From Thermanaerovibrio velox DSM 12556 (GTDB taxonomy: Bacteria > Synergistota > Synergistia > Synergistales > Synergistaceae): 64,000 nt of DNA. A model generated the notes under the pieces. It was not told the origin of the DNA. It ran no database searches and worked only from the letters and a program-made list of their open reading frames with translations. Below are positions 37,393 through 47,116 of this stretch, piece after piece. Each line of letters opens with the position of its first letter. The first letter of the stretch is position 1. The translations under genes were made by a program, and so were the position numbers. Location of the stretch: assembly GCF_000237825.1 (NCBI RefSeq), contig NZ_CM001377.1, forward strand, positions 1,762,276-1,826,275, given 5' to 3'.

Positions 37393-37552
37393 GAAAAACC
37401 CACCTCCATAAGCATTCCGCCTCAAAATCCAGTCTGCCACCCCGTCGGGACAACAGGATACGGTGATTATTATAAGGATAATCGAGCACAATGTTCCATC
37501 TATTTACTAGAATATCAAGAAATATGTACTGTTTTTAATGGAGGTGTAACCG

Positions 37553-39208
37553 ATGAGACCAAACCAACCCTTGCCTCCCGAGGGGGATTTCATAACCGAC
37601 CTTGGGGGGATAGAGCTTGGCATTGAGGACCTGGCGGGGGCCATGGATGTGTTATCCGCTTCCATATCCTCCATAGAGGAGGAGTCCTCCCGGGTGGCAA
37701 GGGCGGGGGAGGAGATGAACCTATACGCCCAGGAGATGCTGAAGGAGCTGGGGGACAGCGCCAGGGAGGCGAAGAGGTCCATGGAGGAGATGAGGTGGGC
37801 CCTCGAGATCGGTCTTAAGGTCCAGGAGGAGGCCCAGAGGGACCGGGACAGGCTCCGCAGCACCGCCGAGGCGGTCAACGCCATGGTGAGGTCCGCGGAG
37901 TCCGTGGCGGACTCCATAGGGCGCATAACCCAGGTGCTGGGGAACATAGCGGACATAACCACCCACATAACCGCCATAGCCAAGCAGACCAAGCTGCTCT
38001 CCCTCAACGCCTCCATAGGGGCGGAACGGGCTGGAGAGCACGGCAGGGGTTTCGCGGTGGTGGCGGAGGAGGTGCGCAAGCTGGCCGCCAGGACCAGCGA
38101 GGCGGCATCCAAGATAAGCGACCTCGCGTCCTCCAGCAGGGCAATAGGGCAGGAGGCGTCGGAGAACATCGACCGGGCCCTCAACCTATCCAGGAACGCC
38201 TCGGACCGGGCGGAGGCCACCATGGAGGACCTTAAGGACATGTTCGACTCCCTTTCCCACATAGGCTCCTCCCTCCGGCTGGGGGCGGAAGGGGCGGCAA
38301 AACAGCACGAAAGGGCCGAGAGGATGTCTAAGAAGGCCCGGATCATGGCGGACAGGGCGGAAGAGCAGGCGGGGCGGCTCAAGAGGGTGGACGGCAAGAT
38401 CAAGGAGAACCGGATGATCATGGACTCGGTCCCCTCAAGGCTCCAAGGGGCGGAAGCGGCCCTTACGAGGCTCCACGGGTCATTGGGGGCCCAGGACGGG
38501 GGGGTGCCCTCCATCGGCTCCATAAAGGAGCGGGGGGTGCTCCTGCTGGGCATAGAGACCGACGACTTCGGGAAGTTCCACTGGTGGGAGGGTGATTCCC
38601 CAAGGGGACTGGACGTGGACCTCGGGGAGGCCATCGCACGACGCATGGGGGTTGGCCTTAAATGGGTGCCAATGGCATGGGGATCCGGAGAACCGGGGAC
38701 CATAACCGGCACTTGGACCCGGGGAAGCTTCGAGGGCTTCGACTTCCTGTGCAGCACCGCCACGAAGCTGCCGGAGCGGCTTAAGCTCTGCACCTTCTCC
38801 AGGAGCTACTTCCAGAGCGGACAGAGCGTGGTGGTCCCGGACAGCTCCCCGGTGGAATCGCTGCTTGACCTCAAGGGGCTCAAGGTGGCGGTTACCAGGG
38901 GTGCAACCAGCGAGAAAGCCGCCAGGGAGAAGCTCAAGGGCTCAACCATAGTTCCGCTTCCCACCGCCCAGGATGAGGCGAAGGCCCTTAGGAAATGCGA
39001 GGTGGACGCGCTGGTGGTGGACCGGCCGGTGGCCTGGGCCTTCCTCAAGGAGAACCCGGGATGGCGGGAGCTCAACGTGTCCCTGTCGGTGGAGAACTTC
39101 GGGCTGGTGATGCCCAAGGGTATCTCCACGGCCCTCAAGGTCCTGGTGGACCAGGTGGTCCTGGCGGAGCGGGACAACCTGAGGAGGAAGTACTTCGGAA
39201 CCAATTAA
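37553..39208 (+). CDS. Soluble chemoreceptor fused to a type-3 solute-binding domain
   Basis: This 551-residue protein has no membrane helix and no signal peptide. Residues 1-310 are a long coiled coil holding the MCP signalling tip ([32 protein letters not shown], near 147-178, quoted in parts: [22 protein letters not shown]). Residues about 322-551 look like a complete SBP_bac_3 domain: [77 protein letters not shown] and [15 protein letters not shown]. The usual binding protein is extracytoplasmic, so a cytosolic amino-acid-sensing receptor is inferred. GGAGGTGT lies 6 bases upstream of the ATG. Confidence 0.88.
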
Positions 39209-46258: not shown

Positions 46259-47116
46259 ATGGCAGACATGAAGATAGGTTTCATCGGAGGAGGCGAGGGG
46301 GCCCTCAAGATAATGCGTCACCTCATGAAGCTGGACTTCAAGATCGCCGGGGTGGTTGACATCTCCGATGACGCCCCCGCCATGAGGGAAGCCCGTCAGC
46401 ACCACATACCCACCTTCAAGAGGATGGAAGACCTGTTGAGCCGTCCCTGCGACCTGGTGATAGAGGTCACCGGCAGGGACTCGGTGGCCAAGGAGGTGGA
46501 GGAGAAGAAGTCCCCCAGGACCGGCCTGCTGCGCTCCCAGGACGCCCGGTTCCTCTACGACATAATCGCCAAGGAGGATGAGAACTCCCGGGTCATAACC
46601 CGGCAGATCGAGGAGATAATAAAGCTCCGGAAGGCCCTTTCGGAGATACTTAAGCCCCTCAAGGAGGCGTTCGACTCCCTGGCATCGGGGAACAAGGACG
46701 TGGAAGGCACCATGAAACCCATGCTGGAGGCCATGGAGCGGCTCACCCAGGAGACCCAGCGGTCCGACGAGCTGGTTAGCACCATACATGCCATAGCCAG
46801 GCAGACCAAGATGCTGGGGCTCAACGCCGCCATCGAGGCCGCCAGGGCGGGGGACATGGGCAAGGGCTTCGCGGTGGTGGCGGACGAGGTGCGCAAGCTG
46901 GCGGAACAGACCACCGCCTCGGTCCAGGAGGTGGGGGACGTGCTCACCGACATAGCGGAGATCTCCAAGGCCCTCGGGGAACCCATAAAGCAGTTCAGCG
47001 CCGTGGCCCAGAACAGGGTCAAGACCATAGAGGCCATAAAATCCCAGGTGGAGAGCCTGTCGTCCATGGTGGCCTCCGCGGAGGCCGTGGAGGCCAGGCT
47101 CCGGGAGATCCTGTAG
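46259..47116 (+). CDS. Soluble chemoreceptor with an N-terminal Rossmann nucleotide-binding domain
   Basis: This 285-residue protein has no membrane helix. Residues 1-75 form a Rossmann-like unit with the glycine-rich loop KIGFIGGGEGALKIMR, then IAGVVDISDDAPAMREARQHHIPTF and DLVIEVTG, as in the NAD(P)-binding part of dehydrogenases. After a coiled linker comes the MCP tip (KMLGLNAAIEAARAGDMGKG and FAVVADEVRKLAEQ, about 190-222). The family combination is rare as far as I know; sensing of NAD(H) or a metabolite is inferred. A GAGGGGG lies about 12 bases before the ATG; an ATG at 46268 is an alternative. Confidence 0.87.
   Translation: MADMKIGFIGGGEGALKIMRHLMKLDFKIAGVVDISDDAPAMREARQHHIPTFKRMEDLLSRPCDLVIEVTGRDSVAKEVEEKKSPRTGLLRSQDARFLYDIIAKEDENSRVITRQIEEIIKLRKALSEILKPLKEAFDSLASGNKDVEGTMKPMLEAMERLTQETQRSDELVSTIHAIARQTKMLGLNAAIEAARAGDMGKGFAVVADEVRKLAEQTTASVQEVGDVLTDIAEISKALGEPIKQFSAVAQNRVKTIEAIKSQVESLSSMVASAEAVEARLREIL

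Follow-up and report, generated by a model that had tools for sequence, protein, structure and literature searches.

The gene at 37553..39208 (+) of the window, by which we mean the whole 64,000-nucleotide stretch of the Thermanaerovibrio velox DSM 12556 genome analysed here, raises the question of whether a solute-binding protein (SBP) fold can work inside the cell as the sensor of a chemoreceptor. The known cytosolic chemoreceptor sensors are mostly of the PAS, globin or CZB type. An earlier sequence-only reading had placed an MCP coiled coil first and an SBP_bac_3-like domain, at about residues 322–551, last in the product, and had regarded the binding-protein fold as relocated to the cytosol and fused after the MCP module. 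T. velox Z-9701T is a motile anaerobe with an optimum at 60–65 °C (PMC3910556).

Architecture and cytosolic location

The coding sequence starts with ATG, encodes 551 amino acids and is preceded by a ribosome-binding site, GGAGGTG, read directly from the sequence at 37540..37546 (+); a promoter scan gave no signal above chance. Because a TAA codon stands in frame directly before the ATG, two codons upstream at 37547–37549, an N-terminal extension is impossible. A hydropathy scan of the whole protein detected no hydrophobic segment, signal peptide or membrane helix, and together with the TAA codon this excludes an upstream start, a signal peptide or a membrane helix, in agreement with what had been claimed from the letters alone. 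The product, with its start fixed, is a soluble chemoreceptor, referred to below as the MCP-SBP receptor.

Pfam assigned two domains above the curated cut-offs, MCPsignal at residues 104–261 (E 9e-27) and SBP_bac_3 at residues 346–506 (E 9e-13). Among PDB sequences, residues 15–300 matched the T. maritima MCP cytoplasmic domain 2ch7 over an equal span, and residues 320–536 matched amino-acid-binding proteins, the best at 3.7e-20. In the full-length AlphaFold model of a single chain (pLDDT 84.9, pTM 0.57), helices 10–159 and 161–311 run antiparallel as the MCP hairpin (residues 10–311; 37580..38485, +), with the tip at residues 152–162 (38006..38038, +), and a linker of nine residues (312–320; 38486..38512, +) leads from the C-terminal helix to a globular part at 321–548. 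The two-lobed SBP_bac_3 domain, recognised by Pfam, AlphaFold, Foldseek and VIA, covers residues 321–551 (38513..39205, +). Modelled alone, residues 316–551 formed a complete two-lobed SBP (pLDDT 93.2, pTM 0.84), for which Foldseek gave ArgBP as the best match (1.3e-23) and matched amino-acid SBPs over the whole length, while VIA gave Z 25.0 and an rmsd of 2.3 over 224 residues to 5eyf, a glutamate-bound glutamate-binding protein. It is confirmed that the receptor consists of a complete MCP hairpin and a complete family-3 solute-binding domain. The domain search and structure prediction proposed in the sequence-only reading for residues 322–551 therefore found the two-lobed SBP, its residue range was right, and the relocation to the cytosol behind the MCP module is borne out by fold and topology.

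The two arms of the MCP module run antiparallel, which brings both its ends to the base, so the SBP domain lies there, far from the tip. According to the model, the signal input enters via the C-terminal arm; the base is the usual input end, and the chain order alone is reversed. The earlier description of a fusion after the signalling tip in reversed order holds for the order of the chain but not for the place of the SBP in the hairpin model.

Distribution and origin of the fusion

Full-length fusions of this lineage (lineage A) amount to 13 genes in 11 of 185 Synergistota genomes, from four families: G000 (T. velox), G001, G002, G006 (three copies), G043, G047, G055, G150, G152, G078 and G079. 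A lineage-A fragment in G153 is ended by the contig end and stands outside this count. Since 11 genomes carry the architecture, chance and a frame or assembly artefact are excluded as the source of the fusion. The search of related genomes for the same architecture, also proposed earlier, thus changes one part of the picture: the receptor is no lone oddity but a member of a conserved family and one of three such fusions in T. velox. When a lineage-A profile was applied to 389 genomes, about half of them from outside Synergistota, full-length fusions were found only in Synergistota, with the best candidates scored per genome, so that distant fusions may escape; a peptide-pattern scan of genome contigs returned unrelated MCPs only. 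In the lineage-A alignment the C-terminal arm is near-gapless, and the linker is near-constant in length, varying by about 3 residues. The fusions of G006, G043 and G152 have an extra N-terminal pair of membrane helices, and as far as their sequences can be read the MCP and SBP parts still lie inside. Past the tip, the second of the tandem copies in G006 (L056:3918-5804, -) has a patch in which GEHGRASPWWRRRCAPLAEAS replaces GEHGRGFSVVAEEVRTLAEAS; it is read out of frame, as though a pair of frameshifts cancelled each other.

The free-standing SBPs nearest to the fused domains are secreted and carry signal peptides; they are about 40% identical and have the WGxGExGT insertion in common. The SBP tree unites the fused domains in a single group with moderate support (78/77), nested within secreted SBPs. 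The lineage-A domain was thus probably relocated from the secreted state to the cytosol, most simply once. In G049, G044 and G053 (L061, L062, L066, L067), the gene for a secreted SBP belonging broadly to this family adjoins that for a classical transmembrane MCP, an arrangement from which such fusions may have arisen.

The gene neighbourhoods vary among clades. In Thermanaerovibrio the MCP-SBP gene is solitary and divergent from a cluster of a DUF6305 protein, a DctM-like transporter and gamma-glutamyltranspeptidase, with DUF364 between them in two genomes, and there is no transporter in its transcription unit in T. velox. One other clade has methylglyoxal synthase, then the MCP-SBP gene, then ZnuA, an ATPase and an ABC-3 permease, and in G043 the gene is downstream of serine dehydratase genes. 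As comparison across clades showed no neighbour common to all lineage-A fusions, the gene context names no ligand.

Ligand pocket and signalling capacity

The pocket was compared with that of E. coli GlnH, the sequence of which was checked against 1ggg/1wdn. T70, R75, G119 and D157 of GlnH, which in this family hold the carboxylate and amine of the amino acid, align to T404 and R409 (carboxylate-binding positions; 38762..38779, +), T452 (38906..38908, +) and D490 (amine-binding position; 39020..39022, +). The arginine is present in all 13 lineage-A fusions, and all 13 have Asp or Glu at the amine position. As the side-chain pocket positions differ from GlnH (D10 to T336, K115 to T448, H156 to V489), no conclusion on specificity can be drawn from GlnH. 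The pocket residues of amino-acid-binding proteins are thus kept, as had been suggested for examination, and they support the amino-acid type of ligand that the sequence-only reading had named. The best reading is that the receptor would sense an intracellular amino acid or a related metabolite.

Several other readings can be set against this one. The close free-standing relatives are all secreted, which would fit an SBP domain exported or outside the membrane as in ordinary receptors; such a location is nevertheless extremely improbable, as the protein has no hydrophobic segment and a fixed start, the domain follows immediately after the CheA-binding and necessarily cytosolic hairpin, and in the homologues with membrane helices all helices precede the MCP. 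Instead of a free amino acid, a working cytosolic sensor could also detect organic acids, peptides or acyl derivatives, or the docking of a partner protein on its SBP. The three replaced side-chain positions, the Glu in place of Asp in some lineages, the clade-specific neighbours (gamma-glutamyltranspeptidase and DctM-like transporter; ZnuA and ABC-3 permease; serine dehydratase) and the complete loss of the carboxylate Arg from the SBP_bac_3 domain of P0002, a T. velox receptor of the same layout, speak for this. However, no lineage-A fusion has lost the Arg or the acidic residue typical of amino-acid SBPs, the top solved relatives are amino-acid binders, and we regard a different ligand as rather unlikely, though still to be reckoned with. 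Cyclohexadienyl dehydratase relatives rank high in the structure matches (Foldseek, VIA), but we judge an enzymatic role unlikely, given the retained Arg/Asp pair of amino-acid type and the fusion to a receptor.

It may further be asked whether the Thermanaerovibrio copy is decaying or signalling-poor, without proper trimers or control of CheA, in a family functional elsewhere. In Tsr, E385 and R388 make a Glu-Arg ionic lock in the receptor trimers, i.e., trimers of dimers (PMC8144572). The tip of the MCP-SBP receptor keeps Arg159 and has Gly156 at the place of E385, so that the invariant Glu-Arg pair of MCPs is incomplete, and the protein counts as an MCP on its remaining traits; this substitution and the absence of a canonical methylation motif (strict motif; one relaxed match at residues 39–46) both point to decay. 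TlpD and Tm14 are likewise without canonical methylation sites (PMC12871147). Glu158, two residues beyond the glycine, might substitute, and the tip Glu is kept in all other lineage-A homologues, G001 included, except G002. The dN/dS of T. velox against G001 is 0.55 for the whole gene and 0.43 for the SBP, and against G002 0.44–0.55 and 0.34 for the SBP; values below 1, lowest in the SBP, indicate that the gene is constrained yet loosely, about 0.5 overall being high and a sign of fast evolution. The value of about 0.55 favours decay, whereas the lower SBP values, the kept pocket and the intact frames of T. velox (551 aa) and G001 (559 aa) speak against it. The G002 orthologue (L055) has an in-frame TAG. 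From 37910 to 38390 of the window the two genomes differ over about 480 bp by a single mismatch, the one that creates this TAG, with flanks 75–85% identical, and the stretch may reflect recent recombination or a chimeric draft contig of G002. Since both the TAG and the Gly fall in this near-identical stretch, the G002 copy does not count as separate support for the glycine, and its stop, in a draft assembly, weighs less in favour of decay. Altogether, we consider decay quite unlikely.

For partners in signalling, the T. velox genome has two CheR genes and six CheW-domain genes, and two of the latter lie in frames (685 and 760 aa) that could accommodate CheA. The hairpin aligns without gaps to many T. 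velox transmembrane MCPs and is of equal length, so mixed arrays with them are possible in principle.

Proposed mechanism and related receptors

We find it reasonably likely that the MCP-SBP receptor acts in the cytosol, presumably as a homodimer, and that through the SBP at the base of its C-terminal helix it monitors a metabolite inside the cell, which is most likely an alpha-amino acid or a close relative. The observations behind this are the architecture, the cytosolic topology, the fold, the carboxylate and amine residues, the conservation and the origin among secreted SBPs; the ligand class, the dimeric coupling and the control of CheA we infer. A ligand would close the two-lobed domain, and closure would shift the C-terminal helix of the hairpin, because a short linker of nearly fixed length joins the SBP to a helix of conserved register; the shift may then alter CheA activity at the distant tip. 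The sensor itself would go back to amino-acid-binding proteins of the secreted kind, its export signal having been lost upon fusion. The mechanism is proposed on the logic of TlpD, a soluble MCP able to signal through a C-terminal sensor (PMC12871147).

The layout resembles that of H. pylori TlpD and the soluble CZB MCPs (PMC12871147, PMC13001251), which are also soluble with the sensor after the hairpin and input at the base via the C-terminal arm, and TlpD is likewise without the six canonical methylation sites. However, the MCP-SBP receptor has a two-lobed SBP in the place of the zinc-binding CZB domain and a hairpin of full length, with arms of about 150 residues, whereas the TlpD hairpin is about half that of transmembrane receptors; in contrast to the TlpD/CZB comparison group, it has no N-terminal PAS domain. 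Pfam found no CZB match in it, and the likeness to TlpD is one of layout only. With the family-3 SBPs (GlnH, ArgBP, AncQR; SBP_bac_3) it shares the whole-length fold, the carboxylate Arg and the amine Asp, but its domain is cytosolic, fused to an MCP and without the signal peptide and transporter partner that characterise the SBPs of ABC importers. The SBP fold is also the sensor of a signalling protein in BvgS-type kinases (PMC5829827) and in P. aeruginosa RmcA (PMC8846402); there SBP_bac_3 is N-terminal and periplasmic and signals via a membrane helix, whereas here it is C-terminal and cytosolic. For c-di-GMP proteins, the PBP clan has been described as sensing in the periplasm (PMC8846402). 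Where periplasmic SBPs activate chemoreceptors in trans, ligand binding for an MCP is likewise done by an SBP, but these are free proteins docking on the receptor (PMC9602780), whereas here the SBP is in the chain and inside. The literature searched nowhere describes an MCP ending in a cytosolic SBP, which is weak evidence as subscription reviews were thinly covered.

Besides the MCP-SBP receptor, T. velox has two further soluble MCPs with a C-terminal binding-protein domain. P0002 (G000:C1:1591417-1592991; L078:3418-4995, +; 525 aa) combines a soluble MCP with a divergent SBP_bac_3 domain (E 2.3e-10); orthologues of it were found only in G001, G002 and G006. The third receptor (G000:C1:1642811-1644532; L019:577-2298, -; 574 aa) carries a PhnD-type PF12974 domain (E 2.4e-68), and receptors of its type, complete or almost complete in length, occur in 15 genomes of Synergistota. 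Four SBP_bac_3 domains were detected in T. velox, and two of them belong to cytosolic MCPs. In the tree of the MCP parts the three families stand apart, 4 label changes are needed and well-supported branches force at least 2, so that a single fusion for all three is unsupported and at least two fusions, probably three, took place.

Outside Synergistota, G343 (L155:1599-3521, -) encodes a 641-aa MCP that has a membrane hairpin and, at its C-terminus, a cytosolic PhnD-like domain. In G276 (L158:2529-5411, -) a transmembrane MCP of 961 aa likewise has its terminal PhnD-like domain in the cytosol, and a full-length relative of this MCP occurs in all six searched genomes of the G276 family. These PhnD-ended MCPs and the third T. 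velox receptor share the plan of the MCP-SBP receptor, with the MCP first and a complete binding-protein domain last in the cytosol, but differ from it in SBP family and belong to a separate MCP lineage; no published account of them was found in the literature searched. We lean slightly towards the view that bacteria have repeatedly hung whole extracytoplasmic SBPs, with the export signal removed, on the base of the chemoreceptor hairpin inside the cell, as a class of receptors for metabolite pools. T. velox would have three of them from separate MCP lineages (amino-acid type, Arg-less divergent and PhnD-like), and elsewhere the domain would be a second, internal sensor of a transmembrane MCP.

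While a soluble MCP with a C-terminal sensor and the family-3 SBP fold are known, a binding-protein fold working inside the cell, in fusions that arose more than once, is uncommon. As the design is repeated in two further receptors, it suggests that T. velox steers partly by its own metabolite levels. Through a conserved family of receptors whose amino-acid-binding fold is ligand-competent and lies inside, cells would have a directly testable route to steering by their metabolite pools, and because the pocket type is well understood, the protein soluble and the source a thermophile, binding, structure and kinase control are measurable. The receptor also offers a natural ligand-to-hairpin coupling for biosensors.

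Two other types of protein were observed alongside. Another soluble MCP of the window (46259-47116, +; 285 aa) resembles in its first 100 residues a Rossmann-type dinucleotide-binding domain (IGFIGGGEGALKIM), and Pfam assigned it MCPsignal only. GlnPQ has two binding domains. Far more are present in a 3249-aa frame of G100:C39 (L124:3857-13606, +): behind a signal-like N-terminus come about 12 divergent SBP_bac_3 domains in tandem, mostly 30–58% identical to each other, and then a terminal BPD_transp_1 permease, and judging from these domains the product is an ABC importer subunit; frames of 1500–2260 aa with several SBP matches occur in other Synergistota genomes.
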